A stretch of DNA of 64,000 bases from Bdellovibrionales bacterium RIFOXYD12_FULL_39_22. GTDB taxonomy: Bacteria > Bdellovibrionota > Bacteriovoracia > Bacteriovoracales > Bacteriovoracaceae. Where the stretch lies: contig MEQL01000051.1 of assembly GCA_001770205.1 (NCBI GenBank), positions 1-64,000 of the forward strand, written 5' to 3'. The notes under the pieces are model-generated. The model had not been told where the DNA came from and ran no database searches. It saw only the letters and a program-made list of their open reading frames with translations. Positions within the stretch are counted from its first letter, which is position 1. Each line of letters begins with the position of its first letter. The translations under genes were made by a program, and so were the position numbers. Of the stretch, positions 10,642-29,703 are shown piece after piece.

Positions 10642-10683
10642 ATAAGCTATGAGGTATAATTCCTATTATACCTCATAGCTTAT
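10642..10683. terminator. Bidirectional terminator between convergent genes
   Basis: An 18-bp perfect stem (10642-10659 with 10666-10683) surrounds a 6-nt loop TTCCTA. The A/T-rich ends of the stem can serve as a U tract in both directions. It follows the MFS stop by 5 bases and overlaps the stop codon of the convergent protease gene, so it probably ends both transcripts. Confidence 0.8.
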
Positions 10684-12488
10684 TCGTCTTTCAAAAATAG
10701 ATTTGGCAAAAAATATCCAGACGAAATCTTCCGCCGGCCAATGATTGGGCCAACTGATGCCTGTAATATTCTCTGTCCCACTTCTGCAGAATCCATTTCG
10801 GGATTTTTTGCCAACATTATTGCCGCATAGGCCGCAATAATTGGTGTAGCATAACTAGTTCCGGAAGCGCCTACCAGCGAATCTCCGCCATCATAAAGAT
10901 ATAAGTTCTCGCTATAAGTTGCAGTTTTGATTATTTTCCCGAAAGCACGTGTTAAGATGGCATTTTCACTAATTCCACTTATTGATAAAACATTAGGCAA
11001 ATTTGCCGGAAACTCTTTCTCCAAATCTTGATTGCGTGCAATATCATTAGATGAGGCTCCCAATATAATTACCCCTTGAGCAAAGGCCCGATCGATAGCA
11101 TTTTGTAGATAGGTTCGAGACTTCTCATAGTCGCCATCAATGAATTTAAAAAAAGTTCGATAAGTTTCACTTATTCCAAAAGACATGTTAATAACTCTGG
11201 CCCCACGCAAAACAGCATAATCGATAGCGTCCGCAACGCGCTTAAAATATAAGTCATCCGATTTCCCATCAAAAGAATCAACTGTTATGGGTAGGATTTT
11301 TATAGGATGTGGCCTAGTCTCATCATAAGCAGAAATCAGTGCTACCATTGAAGCAACTCTAGTTTCGTGCAATCCATTGGCCGAATTATGTGTGCCGTAA
11401 TTAGTGCCATTTCCTAAAAACAGATTTAATCCGTTATAATCATCAACATAACCGTTACCATCATCATCAAAACTGTTGTCGGGAATTTCTTTTTTATTTT
11501 GGTCAATCATACCAAGAAAATTTGCTGGATTAATTTCTGCGCCAACTATGGCCACGGTTTGCGAGCGAACTCGACCATCTAAAACGGATTGATGACTCCA
11601 TTGTAATTTATCTAGCACTCCCCTATTTTGTTCTTCCATTTTTTTTTGCCAAGTAGAAGAATCTTTAAGTTGTCCGTCTATATCATTGGCCTGAGCATAG
11701 GCCTGAGGAGAGTTGCAAATTGGTGAGACGATCGGCAATTTTTCAAATTTTTTAGTGGCATGATTAAAAACATTAGAACTTTGCCAATTAAAACATTTTA
11801 ATGCCTTCTCCTGGCCCATTCCTTGAGGGGTACTAATCAGTGGAATATCTTCGATCTTGTAGACACAGGAGATAAATTCTAAAGACGTGTTTGTTGCAGA
11901 TTCAGCTTCTTCATAGTAACTGGCCGAGCCAGGCGTATCCCTAACATAGAGAACTGGGACCAACGGCAATTTTTGATAATACAGTGATTCGCTATCTTCG
12001 GAATAAGAACCAGCAACACTGTTCCAACGATAGAGATCATGACGAGTATGTGAAGGTTTTGTAATCAACCATGAATTGTATAGTGGATCAACATCAATGG
12101 AATCAATCACCATTTGTGGATGGATAAACTTAACATTTTGTCGTCCAAAAAACTCGCGAACCGTCCCAAAATGAAAAGAATCTTTAGTACTCTCCCACAT
12201 ACAACCCCTAATAAATTGCACAATACCAAACTTTAACAAATTATCCACGGAGTCAGTGGTATACCTTAGGTAGACGCGAGACTTAAGATTGCGTCCAAAA
12301 CTACCTTGAATATCTAAATCCTTAACTAAAATTTCAAAACTTTTAAGAGAACAACTCTGAGTTATCTGACAATTTTGATTTTGATAGATTTCACTTTGTC
12401 TAATTGTCTCGTAGGTTTTTGCCAAAAGGAAGGAAGAAAAAGAAAAAAAAGTAGCGATAAATATAATTTTTTTCACAATGAAAAACAT
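10680..12488 (-). CDS. Exported subtilisin-like (S8) protein with altered catalytic triad
   Basis: The 602-residue protein has a signal peptide (about 1-23, ending LLAKT) and an unrecognised N-terminal domain of about 280 residues with several cysteines. The S8 fold follows. The Ser motif GTSYATP (Ser545) and the His motif (His374 in GLHETRVAS) are present. The position of the catalytic Asp reads VAIVGAEIN (312-320) where active enzymes have V-I-D-T-G. An Asp-rich loop (DDDGNGYVDD, 341-350) is shared with the intact subtilase at 28063-29703, so the two are probably paralogues. The triad lacks Asp, so it may be a pseudoprotease or use the nearby Glu318. It is divergent from the kinase at 12606. 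Confidence 0.8.
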   Translation of the reverse strand: MFFIVKKIIFIATFFSFSSFLLAKTYETIRQSEIYQNQNCQITQSCSLKSFEILVKDLDIQGSFGRNLKSRVYLRYTTDSVDNLLKFGIVQFIRGCMWESTKDSFHFGTVREFFGRQNVKFIHPQMVIDSIDVDPLYNSWLITKPSHTRHDLYRWNSVAGSYSEDSESLYYQKLPLVPVLYVRDTPGSASYYEEAESATNTSLEFISCVYKIEDIPLISTPQGMGQEKALKCFNWQSSNVFNHATKKFEKLPIVSPICNSPQAYAQANDIDGQLKDSSTWQKKMEEQNRGVLDKLQWSHQSVLDGRVRSQTVAIVGAEINPANFLGMIDQNKKEIPDNSFDDDGNGYVDDYNGLNLFLGNGTNYGTHNSANGLHETRVASMVALISAYDETRPHPIKILPITVDSFDGKSDDLYFKRVADAIDYAVLRGARVINMSFGISETYRTFFKFIDGDYEKSRTYLQNAIDRAFAQGVIILGASSNDIARNQDLEKEFPANLPNVLSISGISENAILTRAFGKIIKTATYSENLYLYDGGDSLVGASGTSYATPIIAAYAAIMLAKNPEMDSAEVGQRILQASVGPIIGRRKISSGYFLPNLFLKDE

Positions 12489-14757: not shown

Positions 14758-15414
14758 TCATGGCCCTGGAAGTAGTGCTATATCGAGTTTTTTATAGTGA
14801 TCTAAAACATTAGCTGAAAGCAACAGTGGGCCACTGACCTCTAGGCCAAATCTTCCTCCCAAACCGGCCCAGGCGAGCGAGGTGGCCAATACTTGATCTT
14901 TTTTTATTGCATTAGAACGTAATAGTGCCTTGCCGTTAATTACAATTAGTTCCATCTCCTCAAACATAGGAGAACTGACTACCACAAAATCTGAAGATTT
15001 ACCTCCCACGTATCCCGGGCCGGCCTGCACCACGATGAGCCTTTGAGAGATAAATTCACGTTGCGGAGAAATCCAACGAGCACTGCCACGAACCAGAGTA
15101 AAATTTTGTAAATTCTCCGCAGTTTTCTCTAACGAAATCGCTGGTGAATTAATAGATAATAGCGATAACGGGCCTATCACCAAAAAAGTTTCATCTGCTG
15201 GTAGATATATTTTTATGATTGAATCAACATCAGTTCCAATAGAACCACTGTAAGGGATTTTGTCTCCTAAAACCAATACTCGCTGGCCGTACGTTGCGAC
15301 TCCTTTGATAGCAACTACTTCCCCATAATAATCTGTAGCAAATCCCAAGGTGTAGGAAATAAAATTTAAAATAAAAACAAAGAAAAATAAAAAAATATTT
15401 CTATTGAATCTCAT
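14758..15414 (-). CDS. Exported FecR-like domain protein
   Basis: The 218-residue protein begins with a signal peptide or membrane anchor (NIFLFFFVFILNFISY). The segment from GEVVAIKGVATYG through LVLGDKIPYSG to LPADETFLVIGP resembles the FecR domain pattern of short beta strands. The C-terminal half (LVRGSARW, VVVSSPMFEEMELIVING) continues it. Such domains usually sit in the periplasm or envelope and bind or signal. The start with GGAG is used, giving a 14-base overlap with the upstream barrel gene, so both are coupled. It is the last gene of the long leftward run. Confidence 0.55.
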   Translation of the reverse strand: MRFNRNIFLFFFVFILNFISYTLGFATDYYGEVVAIKGVATYGQRVLVLGDKIPYSGSIGTDVDSIIKIYLPADETFLVIGPLSLLSINSPAISLEKTAENLQNFTLVRGSARWISPQREFISQRLIVVQAGPGYVGGKSSDFVVVSSPMFEEMELIVINGKALLRSNAIKKDQVLATSLAWAGLGGRFGLEVSGPLLLSANVLDHYKKLDIALLPGP

Positions 15415-16444
15415 GCCTATACTCCAAAGAAAATTTTGTAATTGCTTCATAATCATTGAGGTCGTGAGTCACCGCGGCTTCTACACTCGGAGAAAGATAA
15501 GACGCTACATCATAAAAAAAACACAATTTTGATTTTGAAAGAAAATTGAATCCAATTCCCATCCCAAAGGTTGAAGCGATCAACTCTCCATAATTATCAC
15601 TCTTGATTCCCTTCTCATCCAACAAACCAATCCGTTCTCCCGATGAACCACGAACAAATAAACTTAAAGCATTATGTTGATAATCGGCCGTCCAGTCAAA
15701 AACTTGATAGCTACCACTAGTATCAAGAGAATTTGCAGTTAAAATATTATGCAGTTTTAGCGAAATTTCCAAAAGATCGGTGTTAAAAAAAACAGGTCCG
15801 ACTTTGGCCTTCACATACGGTGTCATCTGCCAATTAATAAGGCCCAGATCATTTATTATTGGGTAAAAGAAATATAACCCGACCACCACTGGCCGATATA
15901 TCGCATAATCCCAATTCGAGATAAAAAGAGTACCGCTGTTAATATTGCTAGAGGGATAGGTCATTTGTCGTACTCCCACACTGTAATTAAATTTTTTGCC
16001 AAAAAAAGAGTATAGAATAAGAAGATCCAAACGAGTTTCCGATCCTTCATCCGTTCGTAGATAGGTGTGAAAATAGTCCAATTTAAAATCTAAAAGAGTA
16101 CGAGGCCTATCTGTTTGTCGTTTCCATCGCTGCACCCAAAGCGAAAAATCAGAGCCTAATGACTTATCTGCTTGCGTATCATAAAGAGAAAGTTGAAATG
16201 AAGAAATAATAGAGTACTGAATTTTAAGCGGTAAAGGATCGGGAAATTTTTTTTTCAACCAATAGTCTACATCTTTTGCCCTACCAATATTTTCCTCCTC
16301 ACTGAAAACAGTATTAGTAGGCGGGTAATAATTTAGTGGAAAATAATTACTACCATAGGGGATAAAAAACGACTCCTCACTACCACATAGATTACTTATT
16401 GTAAGTACCGTGCAGAGAACGACAATTATCCCTATCCTTATCAA
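15401..16444 (-). CDS. Predicted outer-membrane beta-barrel protein
   Basis: The 347-residue protein has a signal peptide (IGIIVVLCTVLTISNLCG). The mature part is rich in alternating, aromatic-ended strands such as LDLLILYSFFGKKFNYSVG and WQMTPYVKAKVGPVFFN, as expected for a beta-barrel. No family is recognised. The only plausible start is TTG at 16444, with a GGGGGAG site 8 bases upstream inside the last codons of the molybdenum-hydroxylase gene. The start overlaps that gene's stop (TTGA), so translation is coupled. It could be a channel for the pathway's substrate, but that is inferred from position only. Confidence 0.6.
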   Translation of the reverse strand: MIRIGIIVVLCTVLTISNLCGSEESFFIPYGSNYFPLNYYPPTNTVFSEEENIGRAKDVDYWLKKKFPDPLPLKIQYSIISSFQLSLYDTQADKSLGSDFSLWVQRWKRQTDRPRTLLDFKLDYFHTYLRTDEGSETRLDLLILYSFFGKKFNYSVGVRQMTYPSSNINSGTLFISNWDYAIYRPVVVGLYFFYPIINDLGLINWQMTPYVKAKVGPVFFNTDLLEISLKLHNILTANSLDTSGSYQVFDWTADYQHNALSLFVRGSSGERIGLLDEKGIKSDNYGELIASTFGMGIGFNFLSKSKLCFFYDVASYLSPSVEAAVTHDLNDYEAITKFSLEYRHEIQ

Positions 16445-18882
16445 TGGCCAGCTCCCCCATTTTCACTTTTCTCTAGTACGGCCAAAGCAATTTTTTCGGC
16501 AGTAATAGGCATCGATTTAATTCGAATGCCCAATGCATCTTCTACAGCATTTCCAACCATTGGTGCGGCCGGAATCATGGTGTGCTCTCCTACTCCTCTT
16601 GCTCCGAATGGGCCATCTGGCTGTGGCCTTTCCACAATAATAGAAATAATTTCTTCTGGTACATCTAAAGTGGTAGGAATTTTATAATCGGTAAAATTAG
16701 AATTTAATAACTTTCCTTTGTCATCAAAACGCATATCCTCATAAAGCACCGTGGCCAGTCCTTGCAAAAGTCCGCCAGTAATTTGGCCTTTGACTAAATC
16801 TGGGTTCAGAGCACATCCAGCATCTACGGCAAAGGCAACTTTATTAATTTTAATTTTACCACTCTCTTTATCAATGGCCAGATCAACTGCTGCAGCACCA
16901 ACCGTATAGTGAACGTTGGGTTTCCCTCCTTGTCCAGTGGCCGGATCACTCATGGCCGAAGCAAATTCTGGCATGAACATTCCTCGGCCAATAATAGGCC
17001 CTCCGCGAAAAGTACCATCTTTTTGTCCAATCCCATTGATAATAAACTCGGAAAATTTTAAAGAAAATTTTCCATCTTTCTTGGATTTTACGGCCTCATC
17101 TTCTAGATATAGATCCTCTTGTTGCATTTCCAAGGCCCGCGCAACTAATTTAAAAATTTGATCTCTCGCATCTTCTGCCGCTCGCTTGACCGCATTTCCA
17201 CAAGACCAAGTTATATGTGAGGCCACGGTTTGCCACTCATAGGGATTGCGATCGGTGTCGGGAGTTTCACAGCGAATTTTATGCGGAGGAACAGATAAAA
17301 TTTCGGCGGCAATCTGTGCCATAACAGTGAAATAGCCTTGGCCAATTTCCATGGCCGATAGCAAAATATTTAAACTTCCATCTTCATTAAATTTTAAAAA
17401 ACAAGAAGAAGAGGCATTAGGGGGCATGGCCGGGGCCTTCCAAAATAGAGAAAAACCTTTTCCATGAACAATGTTGGATTTATTCTTATTATCCTCTGGA
17501 TATTTTTTCCCCCACTCTATTGCTTTTGCTACTTTGGTTATACATTCATGTAATCCATTGGGATTCATACTAGCACCATAGGCCAATTTATCTCCCTCTG
17601 CGATCGCATTTTTTAAACGAAAATCCACAGCATCTAATTTTAATTTTTTGGCCATCTCGTTAATGTGCGACTCCAGTCCAAATAGAAATTCTGAATAACC
17701 AAACCCACGATATGGCCCACCAGGTGGCAAATTAGTATAGACACAAACTGAATCAATTTTTACGTTGGCAATTCGGTAAGGGCCAGTGGCGGAAAGGCCG
17801 GCAGCATTAACCACGTTTGCGCCATATTCTACATACGCCCCCGCATCCCAATAAAGTAACTGCTCTAGCGCTGTAATCGTTCCATCTTTTTTTACTCCCA
17901 TTTTAATTTTAGCATGCACTCCTTGGCGCTGATAGGTATTATAAAACTCTTGTGAGCGACTCCAAATTACTTTTACTGGCAGGCCGCGCACACAGGTGGC
18001 CAAGGCCGCCGCCAAAATTTCCATGGAGACTCCGGCCTTTCCACCAAAACCTCCTCCTACATAGGGAGTGATAACTCGAATATCTTTGTGGGTAAAACCC
18101 AATGGGGCCAAGGCCTCAACAAAAAGATGTCGCTGTGTATGAGGTGATTGCGATGCTGTCCACATAGTAAGACGGCCAGAGTGATCGCACAATCCAACCG
18201 AGGCATGAGTTTCAATTGCACAGTGAGCATAGCGAGGAACGGTATATTCATCTTCTAAGATATAGTCGGCCTCTTGAAAACCACTTTCCAAATCGCCCTT
18301 TCTAATTTTACGAAAATGGGCAATATTGGAGTTATCTTGCGGAAAAAACCAAGGAACATGAGTATATTCGGAGAGTTTAGGGTGAATCATATTTTTAGGA
18401 TTATGGCCAAATTCCTTCTCACTACTTCGTTTATTTTCTTTTTTACTGCTTAATCCCAAGGCATCATAAACGGACAAAATTGGTTTAAGCTCTTCATATT
18501 TTACTTCCACCAATTTGGCGGCCCTTTGGGCGGTGGCCTCGTCACGAGCGATAACTGCCGCGACTTGCTCTCCGATAAAACGCACCCGATCCTGGGCAAA
18601 AATATAGCGATCATGCATATAAAGGCCAAAGCGGAAAGGAAATTCATTTCCCGTAACTACACGAACTACTCCTGGAATTTTTTCTGCCTTTTTCGTATTG
18701 ATAGATAAAATTTTTGCATGAGCATAAGGTGATTCTACAATAGCAGCATAAAGTAGAGAATTTCCAAAATCAATATCATCGACATATTTTGCCGCCCCAG
18801 TAATCTTCTCTTTCCCATCCACTCGTTTTGTATTTTTTCCAATGTATTTGAATTTAGCAGATGCCTGATTATCTTCCTTCAC
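16441..18882 (-). CDS. Xanthine dehydrogenase family, molybdenum-binding large subunit
   Basis: The about 813-residue subunit carries the molybdopterin site of a xanthine-oxidase-family hydroxylase. Visible motifs are IGEQVAAVIARDEATAQ, the loop GGFGGKAG, GPYRGFGYSE, MEIGQGYFTVMAQIAAEIL and, near the C-terminus, GARGVGEHTMIPAAP with the catalytic Glu. The family hydroxylates purines, nicotinate, aldehydes and other N-heterocycles with water. The substrate cannot be read from the sequence. The GTG at 18882 is chosen because AGGAGG lies 8 bases before it. An ATG at 18909 has no site. It overlaps the FeS subunit by 14 bases. The FAD, FeS and Mo subunits are separate genes as in the XdhABC arrangement. 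Confidence 0.9.
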   Translation of the reverse strand: MKEDNQASAKFKYIGKNTKRVDGKEKITGAAKYVDDIDFGNSLLYAAIVESPYAHAKILSINTKKAEKIPGVVRVVTGNEFPFRFGLYMHDRYIFAQDRVRFIGEQVAAVIARDEATAQRAAKLVEVKYEELKPILSVYDALGLSSKKENKRSSEKEFGHNPKNMIHPKLSEYTHVPWFFPQDNSNIAHFRKIRKGDLESGFQEADYILEDEYTVPRYAHCAIETHASVGLCDHSGRLTMWTASQSPHTQRHLFVEALAPLGFTHKDIRVITPYVGGGFGGKAGVSMEILAAALATCVRGLPVKVIWSRSQEFYNTYQRQGVHAKIKMGVKKDGTITALEQLLYWDAGAYVEYGANVVNAAGLSATGPYRIANVKIDSVCVYTNLPPGGPYRGFGYSEFLFGLESHINEMAKKLKLDAVDFRLKNAIAEGDKLAYGASMNPNGLHECITKVAKAIEWGKKYPEDNKNKSNIVHGKGFSLFWKAPAMPPNASSSCFLKFNEDGSLNILLSAMEIGQGYFTVMAQIAAEILSVPPHKIRCETPDTDRNPYEWQTVASHITWSCGNAVKRAAEDARDQIFKLVARALEMQQEDLYLEDEAVKSKKDGKFSLKFSEFIINGIGQKDGTFRGGPIIGRGMFMPEFASAMSDPATGQGGKPNVHYTVGAAAVDLAIDKESGKIKINKVAFAVDAGCALNPDLVKGQITGGLLQGLATVLYEDMRFDDKGKLLNSNFTDYKIPTTLDVPEEIISIIVERPQPDGPFGARGVGEHTMIPAAPMVGNAVEDALGIRIKSMPITAEKIALAVLEKSENGGAGH

Positions 18883-19363
18883 AACCACATCCTCCTTTCT
18901 TCCCCTCATGTTCACACTTGCAAACCTGTGCAATAGCATCAATGATGGGAGTATATCCGGTACAACGACAAAGATTTCCGGCCAATGCCTCCCGTATCTC
19001 TTCCACTGATGGACAACAATTGTTTTCTAACAACTCATGGGCCGCAACAATAAATCCTGGAGCGCAATAGCCACATTGAAAAGAGTTATTATCCAGGAGT
19101 TTTTCTTGAATAGGAGAGATTCCATTTTGCATTAATCCTTCCAGCGTAGTGATCTCATGGCCTGCGACTTCTACCGCTAGCACTAGACAACTTTTCACAC
19201 TTTTACCATCAAGTAAAATAGTGCAAGCGCCACAATCTCCTCGATCACAACCACATTTGGGACTGGTGAGACCTAAGCGTTTGCGCAATACCTCAAGTAA
19301 AATTTCAGAAGGGTTAACTTCTAATGATCGTTTTTCGCCGTTTAATACAAATGAGATTTTCAT
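18869..19363 (-). CDS. Xanthine dehydrogenase family, [2Fe-2S] small subunit
   Basis: The 164-residue subunit moves electrons from the molybdenum centre to FAD. The plant-type cluster ligands are C37, C39 (CGCDRGDCGAC motif), C44, C47 and C59. The second cluster uses CGYC (97-100) and CRC (132-134) in the family signature LAGNLCRCTGYTPIIDAI. The C-terminus has an uncommon tail with four more Cys (CKC, CGC; 148-161). The gene sits between the FAD and Mo subunits, overlapping both (4 and 14 bases). Confidence 0.93.
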   Translation of the reverse strand: MKISFVLNGEKRSLEVNPSEILLEVLRKRLGLTSPKCGCDRGDCGACTILLDGKSVKSCLVLAVEVAGHEITTLEGLMQNGISPIQEKLLDNNSFQCGYCAPGFIVAAHELLENNCCPSVEEIREALAGNLCRCTGYTPIIDAIAQVCKCEHEGKKGGCGCEGR

Positions 19364-20256
19364 AGATGAGTGATTCCATAGTGAGGCCCATGGCCTTTTA
19401 ATCTTTCGTCTGCAATTATTAATGCACGGCCTAACATCACTTTTGACATGTGCATTCGATATTTGGCAGTAGCACGAATATCGGTAATAGGAGATATTTC
19501 TTGCTCCACCAAATCATATGCCTGTTTTAAAAGCGCAGTATTAATTTCATGGCCATTTAAAAGCTTTTCAATTTTTCCTGCGCGCACCGGTATTGGTGCA
19601 ACTGCTCCAAATGCAATTCGATATTGTTTGTTAGCAAGTGCCAACACGGAAATAGAGGCCTGGGCCAAATCCTCTCCTTGGTAGCGGCCAAGCTTTATGT
19701 AGCATCCGGCCTGTTCATTGGACGGAAGAGGAATAGTTACTCCCAGCACCAACTCTCCTTTTTTAAGGGCCGTCTTTTTGGGTGCTACAAACCATTTGCT
19801 TATTGGTACCACTCTACTTCCTCCTTTCAATGATCTTAGTTCCACCTTGGCATCATAAACTGCCAAGATGGTACCACTATCCATGGATGGAACTGCTGAG
19901 CAAATGTTTCCCACCAGCGTGGCCCGATTACGAATGGCCACTGAGGCCACCGTTTTGCTCATCTCCATTACTAGCGGTAGGCGCTTATTGATTAGCTCAC
20001 TATTAATTAAATCCGAAAAGGTAACAAGTGCTCCCAAGAAAATACTTTTTTTATCTTTTGCCAGTGCTATGGAATTGAGTCCTTTAATGTTTTTTAGATC
20101 GATCAAATTTTTGCAAATAGCGCGCTCTTCTTTTAGGTTGCAGATGAGATCAGTTCCTCCGGCCAGAGGGAGAGCATTTTTTTCTTTTGCTAGCAGGGAA
20201 AGCGCCCCTTTTAAATCATTTGGGCAATGATAAACAAAGTCTGATGTTATGGCCAT
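19360..20256 (-). CDS. Xanthine dehydrogenase family, FAD-binding subunit
   Basis: The 298-residue medium subunit has the FAD-binding signatures PLAGGTDLICNLKE near the N-terminus and IRNRATLVGNICSAVPSMD in the middle, followed by the CO-dehydrogenase flavoprotein C-terminal domain. It hands electrons from the FeS subunit to NAD or another acceptor. The start is at the ATG ending at 20256 (GGAGAG upstream), overlapping the cyclase gene by 10 bases. A frame extension upstream has no support. Confidence 0.92.
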   Translation of the reverse strand: MAITSDFVYHCPNDLKGALSLLAKEKNALPLAGGTDLICNLKEERAICKNLIDLKNIKGLNSIALAKDKKSIFLGALVTFSDLINSELINKRLPLVMEMSKTVASVAIRNRATLVGNICSAVPSMDSGTILAVYDAKVELRSLKGGSRVVPISKWFVAPKKTALKKGELVLGVTIPLPSNEQAGCYIKLGRYQGEDLAQASISVLALANKQYRIAFGAVAPIPVRAGKIEKLLNGHEINTALLKQAYDLVEQEISPITDIRATAKYRMHMSKVMLGRALIIADERLKGHGPHYGITHL

Positions 20257-21074
20257 TTGCTCTCTCCGGTCATGGCCACAATTCGGCACATTGCTGATTC
20301 TAATTCAATGCCTTTTAACGGAAAACATCCAATCCAAGCGCGCTTATTTTTTATCAAATTTATTTCTCCACCTAAGTTTTCTGCATGCACAATGCCTTTG
20401 GGGAAAAGTTTTAAATGCATTACTTGATAATAAATATCTTGTGGAAAAAATTCATCCCAACTTTTTCCATACTCACTTTTTATTTTTGCCTCTGCTTCCA
20501 AAAATTTACTTGGATGCCATTGGCGAATAATTGTATTCATGGGGTGATCCGCGCTACCACAATCTACTCCAATCCAATTAATCTCCATATCCATGCACCA
20601 CTGATGAAATTCTGGAGCAGGCCCTGGGTGTTTTACAAAATAGCGAATTTCATCACAATTTGGTTGATCCCAGGCATATCTGTTATAACCAGTATTGATA
20701 ATTAAAATATCTCCTTTTTTTACCTCTACTCGATCCGTGATCATCTTTGGTGTATATAGACTATAATCAGAAACAGCATCAGAAATATCTACGACAACTC
20801 CTGGCCCTACCCACTCATCAAGAGGAACCTTCCCAATGGCCCTTCCCGCAGAATAAAAGTGAATCTCTCCATCCATATGGGTTCCCACATGATTGGAAGT
20901 GGTAATAATTTGGCCATTGGCGCCCTGCCCCATATGTGCTCCTGCAATTCGTTTAAAATATTGAATCCCAAAAGGCATATAGGAAGGCCAGGGAGGAGTG
21001 TGAATACTCAAATCCTGTGTCAAATCATAAATGCGAAATCCATTCATCATTTCTAAAAATTTGGTTGATTCCAT
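20247..21074 (-). CDS. Cyclase-family metal-dependent hydrolase
   Basis: The 275-residue protein carries the cyclase-family (kynurenine formamidase/isatin hydrolase) motif HVGTHMDGEIH at 62-72, which binds Mn or Zn. Further family features are the N-terminal YDLTQDLSIHTPPWP and a DCGSADHP stretch that places more ligands. Members hydrolyse formamides or open cyclic amides. Next to a molybdenum hydroxylase and a ureido carbamoyltransferase, a ring-opening amidohydrolase is the most natural role, but the substrate is unknown. An AGGAG site fixes the start. The 94-bp gap upstream may hold a second promoter. Confidence 0.85.
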   Translation of the reverse strand: MESTKFLEMMNGFRIYDLTQDLSIHTPPWPSYMPFGIQYFKRIAGAHMGQGANGQIITTSNHVGTHMDGEIHFYSAGRAIGKVPLDEWVGPGVVVDISDAVSDYSLYTPKMITDRVEVKKGDILIINTGYNRYAWDQPNCDEIRYFVKHPGPAPEFHQWCMDMEINWIGVDCGSADHPMNTIIRQWHPSKFLEAEAKIKSEYGKSWDEFFPQDIYYQVMHLKLFPKGIVHAENLGGEINLIKNKRAWIGCFPLKGIELESAMCRIVAMTGESKWP

Positions 21075-21168
21075 TTTATTTCTCCTAATCAAAGTGTGAT
21101 CTTAAAAGGATAAGAAATTAGATAGAAGTACGCAATGAATTTCAGTGAGCTATATTAGATATGGATCT

Positions 21169-22578
21169 TTAATGGGATAATAACCCTTTCACAAATTCTT
21201 CATAGGCCAATTTAAAAGGCATGGCCGGTGCAGATAAGACTCCGGCACCTACCTGTCCTATCCCTGCTTTCTTGTGAGCAACTCCCGTATCAATAAAGGG
21301 CAAAATATTCTTTTCCACCACCTTAATTAGATCGATTCCCGTAGGAGTTCCTCGGAAATTTAAGTAAGGAATTTGATAAACACTGTTTTCTCCTACCGAA
21401 ATTTCATACATCTGCATCGTATAATTGATAGCATCTTGAGCTACCCCGCCCACAAATTGCACAATGGCCGGTGAGGCGGCAATCGCAAATCCACCTAGCC
21501 CGGCAGTTTCGGTTATTGCACTATCTCCAATATCTGGATTGGCATCTGCTTTTGAAAAACCGGGGAAAAAGAGAGCATCTGGAACTTCTGCCGGGCCGAC
21601 AAACCACCGGCCATTCATCGCAGATAATTGAATCCCAAAATCAGTTCCATTTCGCGCCATGGCCGTCAACATAGAACTATTTTCAATTCCGCGCGCAGCA
21701 TCCAACGAAACTTTGGAGGCCGGCATAGAAAGATTTAAAAAGAAATGATCATTACCATTAATAAAATTTAAAACATCAATTTGCGCTTGACGCTCGGCCT
21801 TGGTTTTTAAAATATGAGGAGCAATACTACGATAAAACAAGGATGTCCCTGCACGATTTCTATTATGTAATTCATCTCCCATATGCAATGCCTGAGCAAT
21901 AATATTTTTTAAATCCACTGGCCCTGCAAAAGAGATTGCTTCTTTCAATATTGGGTATAAAGTCTTTTCCATCCAGCGAAGCTTGGTGATAACTTCCAAA
22001 GAATAGGCACCATAGCGCAAAACTTTACCCAAACCTTCATTCATGGTGCAATATGCGCGATTTTTATATTCGCTATTTTCCAAAATAAAAACTGGCATTG
22101 AAAAAGAAACCACACCGGCCATCGGCCCAACAGTTTGATGTTCGTGACAAGGAGAATATTCAACTTGAGAAGAAGCGGCCAAACTTGCTGCATCCTCCTC
22201 ATTATGGGCCAACCCCTCATATAACAATGCCCCAATAATCGCCCCCCTCATAGGTCCACACATTCGTGCCCACTCAATAGGTGGGCCGGCATGTAAGATT
22301 AGATTTTTTTTCATCCCAGGAATAACCTCTCCTGCCTGGGCCAGGCCGATTAACATCGGCCTTCCTCTATTTACAATTGCTAGCGCTTTGAGATTAGCGG
22401 CCTCAATTTTACTTCGATTTTTCTCCAATAGTTCTTGAAGTTTTTTGTCAAAAACCAGCGGAGGTTTCCAATCTACGTGCAATGACTTTGCCCCATGTGC
22501 TAGTGCGGTTTGGTGAAAACTTTCAATGCCCAAATTTATAATTTTTAATTTTTCTTTTAATAATTTATTACTACTCAT
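21169..22578 (-). CDS. DUF1116 protein, AllG-like carbamoyltransferase subunit
   Basis: The 469-residue protein matches the DUF1116 family (E. coli YlbE, now AllG) through segments such as ARMCGPMRGAIIGALLYEGL, YSPCHEHQTVGPMAGV, GRWFVGPAEVPDALFF and DIGDSAITETAGLGGFA. With FdrA/AllF and DUF2877/AllH it forms the oxamate carbamoyltransferase that splits oxalurate with phosphate in anaerobic allantoin breakdown. Here the three genes are adjacent and in the order allH-allF-allG. The family call is firm. The exact substrate is inferred. A GAGG site precedes the ATG. No carbamate kinase gene is in the window. Confidence 0.85.
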   Translation of the reverse strand: MSSNKLLKEKLKIINLGIESFHQTALAHGAKSLHVDWKPPLVFDKKLQELLEKNRSKIEAANLKALAIVNRGRPMLIGLAQAGEVIPGMKKNLILHAGPPIEWARMCGPMRGAIIGALLYEGLAHNEEDAASLAASSQVEYSPCHEHQTVGPMAGVVSFSMPVFILENSEYKNRAYCTMNEGLGKVLRYGAYSLEVITKLRWMEKTLYPILKEAISFAGPVDLKNIIAQALHMGDELHNRNRAGTSLFYRSIAPHILKTKAERQAQIDVLNFINGNDHFFLNLSMPASKVSLDAARGIENSSMLTAMARNGTDFGIQLSAMNGRWFVGPAEVPDALFFPGFSKADANPDIGDSAITETAGLGGFAIAASPAIVQFVGGVAQDAINYTMQMYEISVGENSVYQIPYLNFRGTPTGIDLIKVVEKNILPFIDTGVAHKKAGIGQVGAGVLSAPAMPFKLAYEEFVKGLLSH

Positions 22579-22580
22579 CT

Positions 22581-24116
22581 TTAAATTCCTCTAATGATTT
22601 TAGTTGCCAAATGTGCGGCCTGTGCATTGGTAAAAACAACCACTACCCCACTCTCCTTGAGCATTTTAATCAACTCTTGTCGGTTTTGAGGATCACTATC
22701 AGTTCCAGTGACAAAACAGATAATGGGAATATGAGGCGCAAGTTTTTTTGCTTTTACTACCGTGGGAATAAACTCTCTTTGCGGATCTAAATTAGCTCCA
22801 TGTCCAATTACCAAGTCCAAAATTATAAGAGCGGTATCTGGCCGAGCAATTTCTTCTAAAATACGACGATTTCGCAAAGAAAAATCAATCATGGGGTGAG
22901 GTCGGCCCTTGGTAAATTCATCTTCTCCCAAATCAACAATACAATTTCCCTGCGAAATATTAGAATTGGCCAAAGTGGCAATCCCACTGGCCGGAGTATT
23001 AGAATATAGGGAGCTAATACCTGCTTCTTGTAAAATAAGTTGCGTCTCATAACAAAAAGTTCCACCGCTATATAGCGCCCGAATGTATTTGTCGCCAGAT
23101 GTTACATTTTTTATAGAGGTAACATCGTTATTGCATTCTAATTGCGCCCTAGGATCTACTAACCGACATGCCAGCAATGCTCCCTCTTCTAGCGTTTTTC
23201 CATAAATCATGTGATGTTTTTCTACGATCTCTTTTGTGGCGCCTAAAAAAACTGCCACCACCGGATACTTACAGCTGGCCACTTTTTTTCCAATTTCCTC
23301 TAAAACAGTCTGATGTGGCGGCTTGGCCACTAGCAAAATAACTTTGGTATTTTCGTCTTGTTCGAGCATTTCAAAGGCCTGCAAAAAAGAGATGCCTCCG
23401 ATTTTTTCTTTTATATCTCGTCCCCCAGTGCCCAATGCATGAGAAATTCCGCCTCCCATATTGTGAATAAGTGATGTTACTTCCTGCATTCCAGTGCCAG
23501 AGGCGCCGACAACTCCAATTTTACCAAGGCGCACGCTATTGGCGAAGGCCAGAGGAACTCCTCCAATAATTGCCGTACCACAATCTGGCCCCATCACCAA
23601 AAGCTGCCTTTTTTGCGCCAAAAGTTTTAATTTCAGTTCTTCTTCTATGGTTATGTTGTCTGAAAATAGCATCACATTCTGGCCAACGGTAAGAGCGGAA
23701 AAAGCTTGGGAATATGCGAATTTACCAGCAGTGGAGATTACTACTAAATTAGCACTTGGCATGATTTTGTATGCACTCTCCAATGATGTAACGGCAAAAC
23801 TGCCATTTTTCTCAGAGGATAATGTACCTCGTTTTTTTTTGGATTGAAGGAGTAATTCCTCTGCTTCATTTAATCTTTTGCTAGCAATTTCTTCATCACG
23901 GCCCAAGAGTACCAGTAATAAATCACTATCGGATACATTTGCAAAATCTTCGATATAAAGTCCTGCCGCCTTTAAAATTAATAAATTTTCCGCACTGCCC
24001 ATAACTACTGCAGAATCAATTACGCCCTCCATCTCTCTGATCTTCTTAGAAATGATCATCAAGGAGATGGAATCGAAATAATCACCTTTTTTTACAATTC
24101 CTTTAGTTACACTCAT
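22581..24116 (-). CDS. FdrA/AllF-like carbamoyltransferase subunit
   Basis: The 511-residue protein resembles FdrA (AllF), a relative of succinyl-CoA ligase alpha chains. It shows the phosphate-loop stretches VMGPDCGTAIIGG and GVVGASGTGMQEVTSLI and the C-terminal LVIGHGANLDPQREF. In E. coli it forms oxamate carbamoyltransferase with the AllG and AllH proteins. The start with GGAG at 24116 is preferred, giving a 14-base overlap with the upstream allH-like gene. The AllG-like gene follows after 2 bases. The length is slightly under the E. coli protein (about 555). Confidence 0.88.
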   Translation of the reverse strand: MSVTKGIVKKGDYFDSISLMIISKKIREMEGVIDSAVVMGSAENLLILKAAGLYIEDFANVSDSDLLLVLLGRDEEIASKRLNEAEELLLQSKKKRGTLSSEKNGSFAVTSLESAYKIMPSANLVVISTAGKFAYSQAFSALTVGQNVMLFSDNITIEEELKLKLLAQKRQLLVMGPDCGTAIIGGVPLAFANSVRLGKIGVVGASGTGMQEVTSLIHNMGGGISHALGTGGRDIKEKIGGISFLQAFEMLEQDENTKVILLVAKPPHQTVLEEIGKKVASCKYPVVAVFLGATKEIVEKHHMIYGKTLEEGALLACRLVDPRAQLECNNDVTSIKNVTSGDKYIRALYSGGTFCYETQLILQEAGISSLYSNTPASGIATLANSNISQGNCIVDLGEDEFTKGRPHPMIDFSLRNRRILEEIARPDTALIILDLVIGHGANLDPQREFIPTVVKAKKLAPHIPIICFVTGTDSDPQNRQELIKMLKESGVVVVFTNAQAAHLATKIIRGI

Positions 24117-24987
24117 AAAAAAACTCCAATTTATCATTGCGTTCAAGCGTCATACAAAGGCCTACCATAAAATCAACCCCGGAGGAACTTCCATAGGTGG
24201 ACAAATGATCTACGGCCGTCGATAACCTTTCTATCGGCCCTTGATTTAAGGCAGAGAGCAACTCTTTTACGGTAATAGATACTCTTCCTCTACTGGCCCA
24301 AAATAACTGCGCCGTGGAAATCAAATTTGGTCCTTGCGCCAGATGGAAAATCATTTCACCTACTTTATCTGGATTAAAACAAGTCTCTTTTCTTGTCAGA
24401 TAGATAAAACGCAATCCTACCATTACTCCCGTCAAGAAATCATCTCCTGTAGGCGTTAACCCCCCCCCCAGGCCCGCAAGCACGACAACTCCTTCTTTCC
24501 AACTGGAAGAAAAAAACAATGCAACACCTTGTACAAAATGATTCAACAAAGTGCGATCAAAGGTACTTCTTTTCAAAGCACTTATATCGCTACCACTACC
24601 CACGTCCTGCAAAAGATAAACGCTATCTGCACACTTTGCATAACTTAAAATTAATTTTTTAAACTCAGCTACCCGACATCCCCAATCCTTCTCACTCTCA
24701 ATTTCCATTTTTGAGCAATAAACTTTTCTAACGTTAGCTGGGAAATTGGGTAATATCTCAACACTAACAACAGACTCTTGGCGGTAATAATCAAGAATTG
24801 GAGGACAAACTTCAATATTCCCAGGCCCTGCGCCAATCACTGATGAAACGAGTGAAATAAGCCTTTCACTGTTTGGATCATAAAAGTTGATCACCGATGA
24901 AAAGCATGAATGCTTGAGGTAGCTACCAGCAACAATTGCGTCTCCACAACTAATAATTAAATGATTACTACTTTGACTGTTGATCAT
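24103..24987 (-). CDS. DUF2877 protein, AllH-like carbamoyltransferase subunit
   Basis: The 294-residue protein carries the DUF2877 hallmark GLGGGLTPTGDDFLTGVMVG near residue 170-190, as in E. coli YlbF/AllH. It probably completes the three-part carbamoyltransferase with the next two genes. The Gly-rich motif is encoded by a run of ten G on the coding strand (24460-24469), a likely slippage site. The gene overlaps the isochorismatase-type gene by 20 bases and the fdrA-like gene by 14 bases. Confidence 0.85.
   Translation of the reverse strand: MINSQSSNHLIISCGDAIVAGSYLKHSCFSSVINFYDPNSERLISLVSSVIGAGPGNIEVCPPILDYYRQESVVSVEILPNFPANVRKVYCSKMEIESEKDWGCRVAEFKKLILSYAKCADSVYLLQDVGSGSDISALKRSTFDRTLLNHFVQGVALFFSSSWKEGVVVLAGLGGGLTPTGDDFLTGVMVGLRFIYLTRKETCFNPDKVGEMIFHLAQGPNLISTAQLFWASRGRVSITVKELLSALNQGPIERLSTAVDHLSTYGSSSGVDFMVGLCMTLERNDKLEFFYECN
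24460..24469. repeat. Homopolymer of ten C (ten G on the coding strand)
   Basis: Ten consecutive C lie inside the allH-like gene and encode the end of Leu plus three Gly of its conserved glycine motif. Such a tract is exceptional in this A/T-rich sequence. Loss or gain of one base would frameshift the gene. In the given sequence the frame is intact. Confidence 0.9.
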
Positions 24988-25549
24988 CTTTTAAAAGTTT
25001 TACCATCTGTTTGAATTCTACCGAATCGGCCCGCTGCAAAAGATAAAATAGCAACGTTTCGGTATTTAAAATATAAGCACCGGCGCGTTCCATCAGTTCT
25101 AGGCCATTTTTCCAACGCAGCTTATTCGAGGAGAGGCAACAATCATTAACCACAACAACTTTGTATTTTTTTTTGATTAGATCTAATACTGTTTGCAAAA
25201 CACAGATGTGAGTTTCTAGGCCAAAAACAATGGCCAAGGGCCGCTTTTTTTTATTAAGTTTTTTTAAATTCTCCAAAAAAGTTGAAGTTTTGCAACAACT
25301 AAAAGTAACCTTATCTGTAAATGCTGGCCCATCCCAAATTGCCAAGATGTCCCGGTCGGTAGGGCCTAATCCTTTCACGTAATGTTCAGTCCCAATCATT
25401 GGTACTTTGAGCATTTTCAGCATCGAAATCGTTAGCAAAATATTCTTTTTTGCCACTTTTAAAACTTTCTCCTCGATGAGTGGATAAAATTTCTCCTGAA
25501 GATCGACCACTACTAAAAAAGCATTCTCTGCCTTCAACTTCTCCCACAT
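24968..25549 (-). CDS. Isochorismatase-family cysteine amidohydrolase
   Basis: The 193-residue protein has the isochorismatase-like triad: Asp16 in VVVDLQEKF, Lys80 in TDKVTFSCC and nucleophile Cys116 in GLETHICVLQT. Relatives include N-carbamoylsarcosine amidase, maleamate amidase, biuret hydrolase and ureidoacrylate amidohydrolase. It is the first gene of the leftward cluster that continues with the AllHFG-like transferase, so a role in splitting an amide or carbamoyl product (for example an oxamate-like compound) is likely. A GGAGG site before the ATG at 25549 fixes the start. Confidence 0.85.
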   Translation of the reverse strand: MWEKLKAENAFLVVVDLQEKFYPLIEEKVLKVAKKNILLTISMLKMLKVPMIGTEHYVKGLGPTDRDILAIWDGPAFTDKVTFSCCKTSTFLENLKKLNKKKRPLAIVFGLETHICVLQTVLDLIKKKYKVVVVNDCCLSSNKLRWKNGLELMERAGAYILNTETLLFYLLQRADSVEFKQMVKLLKDDQQSK

Positions 25550-25745
25550 ATAAACCTCCATGATTTGATAAATTTGTTAAATTTCTGAAATACTTTTTTT
25601 TATCCATGAAAATATTACTCTTTTTCCCTAGATCGTTAAGTAGTTTTATCAAAACAGAGCTATTTTTCTCCAAGATCTTCAGCAATCGTTGATTTGTCCC
25701 AAATAATCGTGTAGTCTCCGGTAGGCCACTTATCTCTGGGGGAGT

Positions 25746-27533
25746 ATGAAAAAAAACGCGTATCTTTTTCTACTATTTCTAGTCTCATCCATCTCTAGTT
25801 CAACTCCTCTTTTTGCCTCTTTGGAGCAAGCAAAGTCTTATCAGTTTCCCGGCAACTACCTAGCAGAAAATCTATATGCTAATCCAACTATTTTACAGGC
25901 CTTTTATTGGTACATTCCCGATCCTGACTCTGGACATAAAGGGCCAGAATCCAATCTCTGGCAATATATCTCCTACACTATGGCAGACGAATTCAAGCAA
26001 CATGGCTTTACCCACGTCTGGCTTCCACCCATGTCCAAGGCGTTTAGTCCCACCAACGAATACAACGTTGGTTACGCCGTTTACGACCATTACGACTTAG
26101 GAGAGTTTCATCAAATGGGCCGCGTGCGTACCAAGTATGGAACCAAACAAGAACTTTTGGCGGCAGTTGAGGCACTACATTCTCGCGGCATCATGGTTAT
26201 TGGCGACATCGTAATGAATCACATGTTGGGAGCAGATCAAGCCGAAAATGTCCCCTACTCTCATGGGTTCATCGTAAACAAGAACAACACAGTAAGCTAC
26301 ATCGGCAGTGGTGAAATTGCGGCCTACCTAAATTTTAATTTCCAAAATAAAAATGACCCAGATCCTCGTGGTACTCGACACTCTAGTTTTGTTTGGAACA
26401 AAGATCACTTTAACGGGCTTGAAATTTTTGACCGCTTCTATCTTTTTCAAGGGAAGTCTATAAATAAAGTAGCATATTTTGGTGATCTTTCCAGCATGCC
26501 CTCGGAAGCACAAAATATCTACAAATCTATTCGCAGCGACATAATTTTAGGCGCCAATTTAGACTTTCAAAATCCGGAAGTTCGTGAAGAAATGATTCGC
26601 TGGACAAAATGGCTCATCAACGAAGTTGGACTAGATGGTTTTCGCATAGATGCAGTCAGACACATCGATACTCCTTTTATTTCCGAATGGGCCTTTGCTA
26701 TTCAGAAGTACATGTCCGACATTGGAAAATTTGACGGTATGCTGATGTTTGGAGAATCTTGGGATGGATGGGCCGAAAGATTAAGTGCCTATCTCGAGGG
26801 AAATCCGGCCAATAATGGCCTTTTTTACAATCAAGGTGATGGCGCAACCAATTATTGCGGAATTGGTAATGCCATGTCCCTTTTTGACGTTCCACTTCAC
26901 TACGACTTTCAAAAAGTAGCAAAAGAAAATAATAGTTATCCTCCGACTCGAATTAGTGATCTACCATACCGTGGTTTATTGGCACGAAATCCTCGTTACG
27001 CCATTACTTTTGTTGACAACCACGACACTATTCCTACTCAAGAATTGGGAAGCTACATTCCTCTACATACGAAATTGCAAGCTTATACTTTTATTTTACT
27101 CAATGAATTTGGCGTTCCTACCGTTTACTACGAAGATATGTACAAAGGAAATTTTGTCAGCAATTATAAGCATGATAACTTTCACGTCTTAAACGAAGGA
27201 ATAAAAAAATTAGTCTATCTTCGACGACGTTATGCCTATGGGCCTGGAGAATATTTTATTGACTACGCCAAACCTGGCATCCTTGGATATAAGCGACAAG
27301 GACGCTCTGATCGACAGGCCGAAAGCGGATTGATCTATCTTATTCGTGAATTTAATTCCAAAGATAATGGACTGATAATACCCACTGATAATCGTAAGTG
27401 GGTATTGGCCGCAGGATCTGGCAACTTTAATAACGGACGTTTTTATCTTAACGATGACTCTGATTGGGCGGTGTGGATTCCCTCTCCTGAAAATGGAATT
27501 CCGGCCACTCAATTACCCTGGAGTTTAAAGTAA
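25746..27533 (+). CDS. Secreted alpha-amylase, GH13
   Basis: The 595-residue precursor has a signal peptide (YLFLLFLVSSISSSTPLFAS). The catalytic (beta/alpha)8 domain shows the family regions DIVMNH, the nucleophile Asp302 in GFRIDAVRH, the acid Glu337 in FGESWDG and Asp427 in FVDNHDT. It should hydrolyse alpha-1,4-glucans such as starch or glycogen outside the cytoplasm, which in a predator could mean prey glycogen. Stop and downstream gene are separated by only 16 bases. It is divergent from the heterocycle cluster. A GGGGGAG site sits close to the ATG. Confidence 0.93.
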   Translation: MKKNAYLFLLFLVSSISSSTPLFASLEQAKSYQFPGNYLAENLYANPTILQAFYWYIPDPDSGHKGPESNLWQYISYTMADEFKQHGFTHVWLPPMSKAFSPTNEYNVGYAVYDHYDLGEFHQMGRVRTKYGTKQELLAAVEALHSRGIMVIGDIVMNHMLGADQAENVPYSHGFIVNKNNTVSYIGSGEIAAYLNFNFQNKNDPDPRGTRHSSFVWNKDHFNGLEIFDRFYLFQGKSINKVAYFGDLSSMPSEAQNIYKSIRSDIILGANLDFQNPEVREEMIRWTKWLINEVGLDGFRIDAVRHIDTPFISEWAFAIQKYMSDIGKFDGMLMFGESWDGWAERLSAYLEGNPANNGLFYNQGDGATNYCGIGNAMSLFDVPLHYDFQKVAKENNSYPPTRISDLPYRGLLARNPRYAITFVDNHDTIPTQELGSYIPLHTKLQAYTFILLNEFGVPTVYYEDMYKGNFVSNYKHDNFHVLNEGIKKLVYLRRRYAYGPGEYFIDYAKPGILGYKRQGRSDRQAESGLIYLIREFNSKDNGLIIPTDNRKWVLAAGSGNFNNGRFYLNDDSDWAVWIPSPENGIPATQLPWSLK

Positions 27534-28062: not shown

Positions 28063-29703
28063 TTGAGAATACTATTTTCCTCCGCATTGGCCGCGGCCCT
28101 TTTTATAACCTTAAATTTATCTCTACACGCTGATATTGTTCCCGATGAATTTATTGTAAGAGTCGAAGATAATACAAAATTTGATCTGCAAAAGGCGGCC
28201 TCTTTTTTTACTCAAAACACCCAAATTGAAGCAAAAAAAGTAGTTCCCATCAAAATAGCAAAATCTATTTTTCTCTCCATCAAACTGAAACAAAGTGATG
28301 TATTAACCTTTTTATCCAAGAAAAAAGGCCAATTTAAATATGTTGAGGCCAATTATCGATGGAAAATAATGACTCAAGACGAACTATATCCAAAGCAATG
28401 GAACTTAGAAAATACTGGAAATAACTACTCCAATCCCATCACAAATAGTGTCAAAGGGGCGGATCTGGATATTGTGCGCGCCTGGGAAATTAGCAAAGGT
28501 GATAGGCAAATTAAAATTGCAGTTATCGATACCGGAATTGATTATAATCACCCGGACCTTAGCGATAACATTTGGATAAATGGCCAAGAGTTCAGAGGAC
28601 AGGCCAATATAGACGATGATAAGAATGGTTACATCGACGATATCTATGGATATAATTTTGTAAAAAACAGTGGAGATCCGATGGATGATCAAGGCCATGG
28701 TACTCACTGTGCAGGGATCATAGGTGCCGCCCATAATAATTTTGGCATCGCCGGGGTTATGGCCAATGTCTCCTTAATGGCACTAAAGTTTATCGATAAA
28801 AATGGAGATGGAAGTACCGAAGGTGCCTTACGCGCAATTGAGTATGCTTTGGCCCAAGAAGTAGATGTACTCTCCAATTCCTGGGGAGGAGGTGAATATT
28901 CTCAGGCCCTCTTTGACGCTATTGCGGAAGCAAACAAAGAAGGAATTATCTTTGTGGCCGCCGCCGGAAATTTTGGCGAAAATAACGACAACCTACATCT
29001 CTACCCGGCCAGTTATAAACTCCCTAATATTGTCTCCGTAGGATCACATGGTGCCGACGATGAACTCTCCACCTTCTCCTCCTACGGAGAACAAAGTGTA
29101 GATCTGGCCGCTCCCGGAGAGAAAATTTTATCATCCCTTCCCAAAAATAAATATGGCATGCTCTCAGGAACTTCCATGGCCGCTCCTCATGTTGCCGGAA
29201 TGGCCGGCCTCTATCTTTCCGTTTTTGGAAAAACTCTACCTGCGCAGTTAAAAGAAGAACTACAAAAAAGCGCAATACATCATCCCTCATATCGCAAACA
29301 AACTATCTCCGGAGGACGCGCCAACGCCTATAATCTTTTGGCAAAAATATATCCACCTCGATTTATAATTCCCGAAAGTAGTTGGATTGACTATCCATTA
29401 CAAGATTCAGATGTTTTTGAAACAAAACATAACTACAACTCTTATGACTATTTATCTAAAACTTATCAAATAGCTAACGCCAGATATGTCCGGCCAATTA
29501 TAAAAAAAATGGAGTTGCGCGAATTAAGCGATATACTACAAATTAAAAATGGAAAGAATAAAACCTACGACAGACTCTCCGGAATTGCCGAAAATCTCCC
29601 AGGCGATTACGTTGACGGTGATACCATTAAACTAAGGTTTAGCTCAAAAACTGCTGGCGACAAATGGGGAATTTTGATTGAAAAGCTCCAATACATTCCC
29701 TAA
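28063..29703 (+). CDS. Secreted subtilisin-like serine protease (S8)
   Basis: The 546-residue precursor has a signal peptide (LFSSALAAALFITLNLSLHA), an inhibitor-type propeptide (about 24-100) and a full S8 domain. The triad is Asp156 in AVIDTGIDYNHPDL, His212 in GHGTHCAGII and Ser371 in GTSMAAPH. A DDDKNGYIDD loop lies between Asp and His. A C-terminal region of about 120 residues is unassigned. The start is TTG with AAGGA at correct spacing. The nearby ATG is out of frame. It is an active-site-complete counterpart of the degenerate enzyme at 10680-12488. Confidence 0.92.
   Translation: MRILFSSALAAALFITLNLSLHADIVPDEFIVRVEDNTKFDLQKAASFFTQNTQIEAKKVVPIKIAKSIFLSIKLKQSDVLTFLSKKKGQFKYVEANYRWKIMTQDELYPKQWNLENTGNNYSNPITNSVKGADLDIVRAWEISKGDRQIKIAVIDTGIDYNHPDLSDNIWINGQEFRGQANIDDDKNGYIDDIYGYNFVKNSGDPMDDQGHGTHCAGIIGAAHNNFGIAGVMANVSLMALKFIDKNGDGSTEGALRAIEYALAQEVDVLSNSWGGGEYSQALFDAIAEANKEGIIFVAAAGNFGENNDNLHLYPASYKLPNIVSVGSHGADDELSTFSSYGEQSVDLAAPGEKILSSLPKNKYGMLSGTSMAAPHVAGMAGLYLSVFGKTLPAQLKEELQKSAIHHPSYRKQTISGGRANAYNLLAKIYPPRFIIPESSWIDYPLQDSDVFETKHNYNSYDYLSKTYQIANARYVRPIIKKMELRELSDILQIKNGKNKTYDRLSGIAENLPGDYVDGDTIKLRFSSKTAGDKWGILIEKLQYIP

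Follow-up and report, generated by a model that had tools for sequence, protein, structure and literature searches.

Which heterocycle is broken down by an operon that joins a molybdenum hydroxylase of the xanthine-dehydrogenase family to an AllFGH-like carbamoyltransferase? Such an operon lies on the minus strand, at positions 16441-25561, of the stretch analyzed here (hereafter, the window), which comprises the first 64,000 nucleotides of contig MEQL01000051.1 of Bdellovibrionales bacterium RIFOXYD12_FULL_39_22. It consists of eight genes in the order isochorismatase-AllH-AllF-AllG-cyclase-FAD-FeS-Mo, the last three being those for the flavin adenine dinucleotide (FAD), iron-sulfur (FeS) and molybdenum (Mo) subunits of the hydroxylase. 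The operon is real, and very likely it encodes an oxidative, energy-conserving pathway from uracil, via barbiturate, ureidomalonate and malonamate, to malonate. Thymine is probably also a substrate. A previous interpretation made from the DNA alone (the sequence-only reading) had proposed that a ring is hydroxylated and opened, its ureide phosphorolyzed and an amide hydrolyzed, in this order, and had left the substrate unnamed. This order of the chemistry is supported, as an inference, by the present results, and the substrate can now be proposed to be uracil or thymine because of the permease, cytosine deaminase, malonamidase and barbiturase-family genes linked to the homologous loci.

The operon and its conservation

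The genes of the operon, as defined from the open reading frames (ORFs) and their Pfam and NCBIfam matches, are listed below. The Pfam matches of the eight proteins were above the curated cut-offs.

24968-25561, minus strand: isochorismatase-family amidohydrolase (MAR1/ISOC-like), proposed malonamate amidase; PF00857, 78 bits
24103-24987, minus strand: AllH-like (DUF2877) carbamoyltransferase subunit; PF11392, 71 bits
22581-24146, minus strand: AllF-like (FdrA) carbamoyltransferase subunit; Ligase_CoA/CoA_binding; PRK06091, 466 bits; likely true start at an ATG near 24116
21169-22578, minus strand: AllG-like (DUF1116) carbamoyltransferase subunit; PF06545, 323 bits
20247-21092, minus strand: cyclase-family metal-dependent hydrolase, proposed barbiturase; PF04199, 119 bits; likely true start at an ATG near 21074
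19360-20289, minus strand: FAD subunit of a xanthine-dehydrogenase-family molybdenum hydroxylase; PF00941 (FAD_binding_5), 150 bits; PF03450, 69 bits
18869-19363, minus strand: 2x[2Fe-2S] subunit of the molybdenum hydroxylase; PF01799 (Fer2_2), 98 bits
16441-18942, minus strand: Mo catalytic subunit, proposed uracil (C6) hydroxylase/uracil dehydrogenase; PF02738, 253 bits, and PF20256, 227 bits (MoCoBD_1/2)

When 84,980 genomes were scanned with the AllG protein, 80 loci were obtained, and the gene combination recurs in at least six phyla (Bdellovibrionota, Cloacimonadota, Bacteroidota, Elusimicrobiota, Verrucomicrobiota and Bacillota). The sequence-only reading had advised looking for the same gene order in other genomes, and the order AllH-AllF-AllG-cyclase-FAD-FeS-Mo was indeed found in Cloacimonadota, Bacteroidota, Bdellovibrionota and Verrucomicrobiota. 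The Elusimicrobiota loci mostly contain the same genes, rearranged, a gene of the nitrilase family lying between Mo and AllH. In Bacillota, AllHFG-cyclase is retained, in many cases next to the Mo operon. The Cloacimonadota orthologues are about 65-70% (Mo), 60-69% (AllG) and about 70-75% (cyclase) identical to the window proteins. The cyclase gene was present in 33 of 125 genomes of this phylum, and all 28 loci fetched carry the block as far as their sequence reaches; in an even draw of Bacillota genomes, a cyclase of the L074 type was present in 31 of 349. Because the gene order is conserved in several phyla, chance is excluded as the origin of the arrangement.

Concerning the limits of the operon, the eight contiguous leftward genes agree with the sequence-only reading. 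With the ORFs as first called, neighboring genes overlap by 4-74 bases or are separated by gaps of 2 and 76 bases. Several overlaps become smaller if the downstream ATG codons seen in homologues (near 21074 for the cyclase and near 24116 for AllF) are the true starts. The earlier interval, 14758-25549, was too wide on one side, since it takes in two unrelated ORFs downstream of the Mo gene (14758-15456 and 15401-16444). They overlap each other and, by 4 bases, the Mo gene, have secreted-looking N-termini, gave no Pfam or NCBIfam match, and lie outside the conserved block in other genomes. Subtilase, alpha-amylase and second subtilase genes flank the operon at 10680-12488, 25746-27533 and 28063-29703 of the window. 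The host genome is a 3.95-Mb assembly of 62 contigs, with Bdellovibrionota closest to it among the named organisms of the AllG tree; statements on genes absent from it rest on targeted searches.

Pyrimidine context and predicted steps

A pyrimidine-specific context, i.e., uracil permease and cytosine deaminase genes, was found in related clusters, not in the window operon itself. Among the 92 loci with a cyclase gene beside AllG, a uracil permease of the UraA/RutG type occurs in 25 and a purine-type permease in one, and AllA-E and YgeW occur in none. An NCS2 permease of the UraA type continues the cluster in eight Cloacimonadota loci (L036, L048, L124, L133-L136 and L142); that of L036, when compared with solved structures, scored 256 bits with the uracil permease and 70 with the uric acid-xanthine permease UapA. 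Uracil-type permeases are also present in 13 of 20 Bacillota loci, the L150 copy being 62% identical to E. coli UraA. Position 290 of UraA is functionally important. It is occupied by Glu in UraA and RutG and by Gln in E. coli XanQ and UacT. With the exception of L077, Glu was found in every NCS2 permease sequence of the bacterial cyclase-AllG clusters that includes this position. Although the loci are not statistically independent, their permeases separate visibly into several groups by sequence. In two Bacillota loci (L166 and L167), the cytosine deaminase CodA and the cytosine permease CodB are encoded beside the permease, cyclase, AllFG and carbamate kinase. A region of ~31 kb of the actinomycete Embleya (L146) encodes AllHFG, a RutG-type permease, a xanthine-dehydrogenase-family enzyme, carbamate kinase, CaiB and CodA. 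As to the linked carbamate kinases or transporters for which the sequence-only reading had also advised looking, uracil-type permeases are linked in relatives, and carbamate kinase lies inside the cluster in 11 of 20 Bacillota loci.

The haloarchaeal clusters L112-L114 were discarded as proof, as L113 and L114 have permeases of the purine type and L113 has a CODH-like Mo subunit. On the haloarchaeal plasmids L113:3705-18715 and L112:3583-12789, the cyclase (46-49% identical) adjoins a xanthine-dehydrogenase-family Mo enzyme and XdhC, and L113 also contains CodA, CodB and a xanthine-type permease. A further plasmid, of the cultured Peptoclostridium acidaminophilum (L108:5709-16312), carries a cyclase-free cluster with PucR, two permeases annotated as xanthine permeases, a BiuH-like hydrolase, AllHFG and carbamate kinase.

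In the pathway proposed, the Mo/FeS/FAD hydroxylase would oxidize uracil at C6 to barbiturate, and the cyclase-family metal hydrolase would open barbiturate to ureidomalonate, as a barbiturase with no relationship to the AtzD/Bar enzymes. The AllF-AllG-AllH complex would then convert ureidomalonate and inorganic phosphate to malonamate and carbamoyl phosphate by phosphorolysis, and the isochorismatase-family enzyme (in related clusters, malonamidase-E2-like or nitrilase-fold amidases) would hydrolyze malonamate to malonate and NH3. Carbamoyl phosphate would yield ATP through a carbamate kinase, encoded elsewhere in the host genome and in-cluster in Bacillota, and clusters with a class III CoA transferase would further convert malonate to malonyl-CoA. 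Each reaction and its substrate are inferred from gene content, conserved synteny, permease type, catalytic motifs and co-occurrence, these being the observations.

The three hydroxylase subunits carry the domains of the xanthine-dehydrogenase family, and an XdhC maturation factor is encoded in the host genome. Nevertheless, the Mo subunit scored below every NCBIfam equivalog cut-off, the best match being XdhA with 535 bits versus a cut-off of 780, so it does not qualify specifically as a xanthine dehydrogenase. The motifs GGGFGGKAG....E and RGFG..E are shared, with minor variants, by the Mo subunits examined from cyclase clusters. The residue following GGGFGGK is Ala in the window protein and in all those subunits, versus Gln in E. 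coli XdhA and XdhD. We take this position to be that of the purine-contacting Glu802 of bovine xanthine dehydrogenase; on this assumption, the Glu expected of a xanthine dehydrogenase is replaced by Ala in the window subunit.

The putative ring-opening enzyme belongs to PF04199 and contains the HxGTHxD metal motif, conserved in homologues as HxGTHxDG. Its AlphaFold model (pLDDT 82) matched KynB, isatin hydrolase and other cyclase-fold hydrolases. As a PF04199 protein, it is not a member of the AtzD/Bar barbiturase family (PF09663). Searches of the host genome for PF09663 and for cytosine deaminase were empty, but both were run without a positive control and carry no weight. No cyclase was found in Embleya L146, where an AtzD/barbiturase-family gene is present in its place. 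This replacement supports a barbiturase role for the cyclase, with which it is consistent without being a proof. Another AtzD-family gene was observed in Aminobacter sp. SR38, in a pSR8 cluster (L109:8394-20813) that also contains AllFG, carbamate kinase, a nucleoside-type (BMP-type) ABC transporter and AllH, and that adjoins a mercury-resistance region on the conjugative plasmid. Because this AtzD-family protein passes the cyanuric acid hydrolase model, the L109 cluster may serve cyanurate.

Regarding the carbamoyltransferase, the three subunit families adjoin in the window operon, and the AllF-like protein exceeds the 433-bit cut-off of the NCBIfam FdrA model PRK06091. AllF is 41% identical to its E. 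coli counterpart, and AllG is 43% identical to E. coli AllG and 65% to that of Cloacimonadota L036. In the AllG tree, the window protein lies inside a supported, cyclase-linked clade of 75 rows, and the AllG of the E. coli oxamate carbamoyltransferase lies elsewhere, on a long branch, so the window protein does not group with the characterized subunit. The window operon lacks AllK as well as AllA-E. The activity on oxamate/oxalurate, assigned in 2024, is the sole one characterized for AllFGH (PMC11326118). The different AllG clade sets the operon transferase apart from the E. coli enzyme, to which it would not be equivalent, and it should act on ureidomalonate rather than on oxalurate. This non-equivalence was missing from the sequence-only reading, whose designation of an AllFGH-like transferase holds for the three subunits.

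Different enzymes occupy the position of the amide-hydrolysis step. In the window, it is an isochorismatase-family protein, with 8rkz and 2b34 as nearest solved relatives, in which the family triad was recognized by inspection: Asp (VVDLQ), Lys (TDKVTFSCC) and Cys (ETHICV). The triad motifs were found by pattern in its closest orthologues and were incomplete in more distant ones. The gene adjoins AllH in five Bdellovibrionota genomes. A BiuH-type role in biuret or triuret hydrolysis was rejected, with 21 bits on the BiuH model versus a cut-off of 370; proteins of the BiuH type were seen in AllG clusters of another kind, which lack the cyclase. Downstream of Mo, the clusters of Cloacimonadota and Bacteroidota encode a CoA transferase of class III and an amidase-signature enzyme. 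The malonamate route had been written down as a prediction before the structure search with this amidase, which gave malonamidase E2 as the best solved relative (170 bits, versus 150 for GatA). Conserved in the cluster amidase are Lys62, Ser131 and Ser155 of malonamidase E2, which we take to be its catalytic triad, and also Arg158. All 28 of the 28 cluster amidases contain G[TS]QTxxSxxRPA, whereas two amidases of cyclase-free loci read GTDTAGSGRVPA. The position is thus filled by the isochorismatase type in Bdellovibrionota, by nitrilase-fold proteins in Elusimicrobiota and Bacillota (those of Bacillota forming a second subtype, nearest to yeast YLR351C), or by the malonamidase type. Since unrelated or distant enzymes fill the same position across lineages, this suggests that they interchange in one shared reaction, the hydrolysis of an amide. 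In two Cloacimonadota loci (L134:3340-5560 and L136:6101-7977), a thiolase (PRK06064) and a 231-amino-acid protein with no NCBIfam match replace the CoA transferase and the amidase; in L134, the next gene encodes a small protein with a weak match to the BbsA thiolase subunit.

The carbamate kinase that the sequence-only reading found missing is indeed absent from the operon, and is present elsewhere in the genome. Among 116 relatives, it was found in 9/9 AllG-positive and 7/107 AllG-negative genomes (Fisher p = 1.5e-9, a value that ignores shared ancestry), and 24 of 26 cluster-bearing genomes contain it. The only copy of the host is of the yqeA type and lies in a yqeA-ygeW-ygeY-xdh-ssnA operon (G000:C35:61799-69276; L116:6800-14277), which also encodes YgeW (72% identical to that of E. 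coli), YgeY, a xanthine-dehydrogenase-like Mo enzyme and SsnA; in the host, the kinase would therefore act in trans. Operons of this type are anaerobic purine clusters (PMC12507026), so purines are apparently handled by this separate operon of the same genome. A classical allantoin pathway, which would have spoken against the sequence-only reading if complete elsewhere in the host genome, was not found there: the two allantoinase-like matches (262 and 218 bits) fell below the 358-bit cut-off. This result and the separate purine operon support its suspicion of a non-purine substrate.

Alternative substrates

Three alternatives to a pyrimidine were considered. According to one of them, a hydantoin-like or purine-derived ring would give oxalurate, a C2 ureide, which AllFGH would convert to oxamate and carbamoyl phosphate, an amidase and CaiB then yielding oxalate and oxalyl-CoA. 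This agrees with the characterized activity of AllFGH and keeps some likelihood because the best model for the CaiB protein is that of CoA:oxalate CoA-transferase (374 bits, below the cut-off of 522). It is nonetheless unlikely, given the resemblance of the linked amidase to malonamidase E2, the uracil-type permeases with Glu290, the linkage to cytosine deaminase and permease, the AllG clade apart from E. coli, and the lack of AllA-E in the 92 loci. Even less credible is an ordinary xanthine dehydrogenase, with the cyclase and AllFGH finishing the breakdown of urate or xanthine, even though the subunits belong to that family, XdhA is the best NCBIfam match, PucR-type regulators are linked in Bacillota, and the L077 cluster has a purine-type permease. 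This purine route was rejected on the permease type, the Mo motif with its Ala, and the separate purine operon; the insufficient equivalog score and the lack of AllA-E and YgeW in the 92 loci also count against it. Similarly improbable is some other ureide-yielding ring, such as a plant or humic N-heterocycle, with the uracil permease linkage being incidental. The versatility of these enzyme families and a host genome with neither a linked nor a UraA-type permease would fit it, whereas a single substrate is indicated by malonamidase, by CodA/CodB and by the uracil-type permeases, which span several phyla and sequence groups.

The uracil pathway also has to face several observations that weigh against it. 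All of its steps are predicted ones. The window operon has no permease, and the single NCS2 gene of the host is AzgA/GhxQ-like rather than UraA-like, which leaves uracil uptake in the host unexplained. To the purine-type permease of L077 and the oxalate-type score of the CaiB protein it must be added that no Mo hydroxylase was found in L166 and L167 within the 19.5 kb fetched. The Mo subunits of actinomycetes carry a motif (KIVHPWP) different from that of the cyclase-cluster enzymes, which may reflect more than one recruitment for uracil oxidation. The isochorismatase is only a putative malonamidase. Finally, the co-occurrence of the kinase may be partly confounded by purine catabolism, or joint nucleobase catabolism, and by shared ancestry; it was set aside as proof of linkage, weakened as it is by the position of the host copy inside the ygeW operon.

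Relationship to known systems

Taking the clusters together, it is likely that they represent a widespread, undescribed pathway with a dedicated Mo hydroxylase, a cyclase-fold barbiturase and a ureidomalonate carbamoyltransferase, through which pyrimidine breakdown yields ATP. In the open-access literature, i.e., outside subscription journals and preprints, no paper was found that joins uracil, barbiturate, AllFGH and a cyclase-family enzyme, which does not establish priority. If the pathway is true, the oxidative pyrimidine route has a second, largely anaerobic form, genes are assigned to uracil oxidation, and there is a new barbiturase family and a second AllFGH substrate; it would also account for the use of RNA and DNA bases by uncultured anaerobes as a source of ATP and nitrogen.

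The oxidative pyrimidine route, described in the 1950s, converts uracil via barbiturate and ureidomalonate to malonate and urea, by means of the barbiturase Bar and ureidomalonase; it has been called rare, with AtzD/Bar homologues in about 3% of the genomes surveyed (PMC3758960). The proposed first two intermediates and the C3 end product of the operon pathway are the same. In contrast, its ring opener would be of the PF04199 cyclase family instead of the AtzD/Bar fold, its ureide would be phosphorolyzed to carbamoyl phosphate, and so to ATP, rather than hydrolyzed to urea, and the operon supplies a gene candidate for the uracil-oxidizing enzyme. Very probably, an old pathway has been rebuilt here with different enzymes, to which this role had not been assigned before.

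With the AllFGH-AllK oxamate branch of E. coli (PMC11326118), the operon shares the three-subunit transferase family and a kinase partner, in the cluster in Bacillota and in trans here. It differs from it by the absence of allantoin genes, by the ring oxidation and opening that would precede the transferase, by the distinct AllG clade, and by a predicted substrate, ureidomalonate, one carbon longer. The clusters of ammonia-oxidizing archaea and comammox, in which AllFGHK was noted beside BiuH in 2025 (PMC12625717), likewise have an isochorismatase-family enzyme adjoining AllFGH. There, however, it is BiuH-type, accompanied by triuret/biuret genes and proposed to act on purine products, whereas the operon has a MAR1/ISOC-like enzyme, linked with a Mo hydroxylase and a cyclase. 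The reductive uric-acid pathway (YgeW/YqeA/SsnA/XdhD; PMC12507026) also combines a carbamoyltransferase and a xanthine-dehydrogenase-family enzyme in one cluster, but with the unrelated transferase YgeW, a reductive dearomatization and a purine substrate, and in this host it is represented by an operon of its own.

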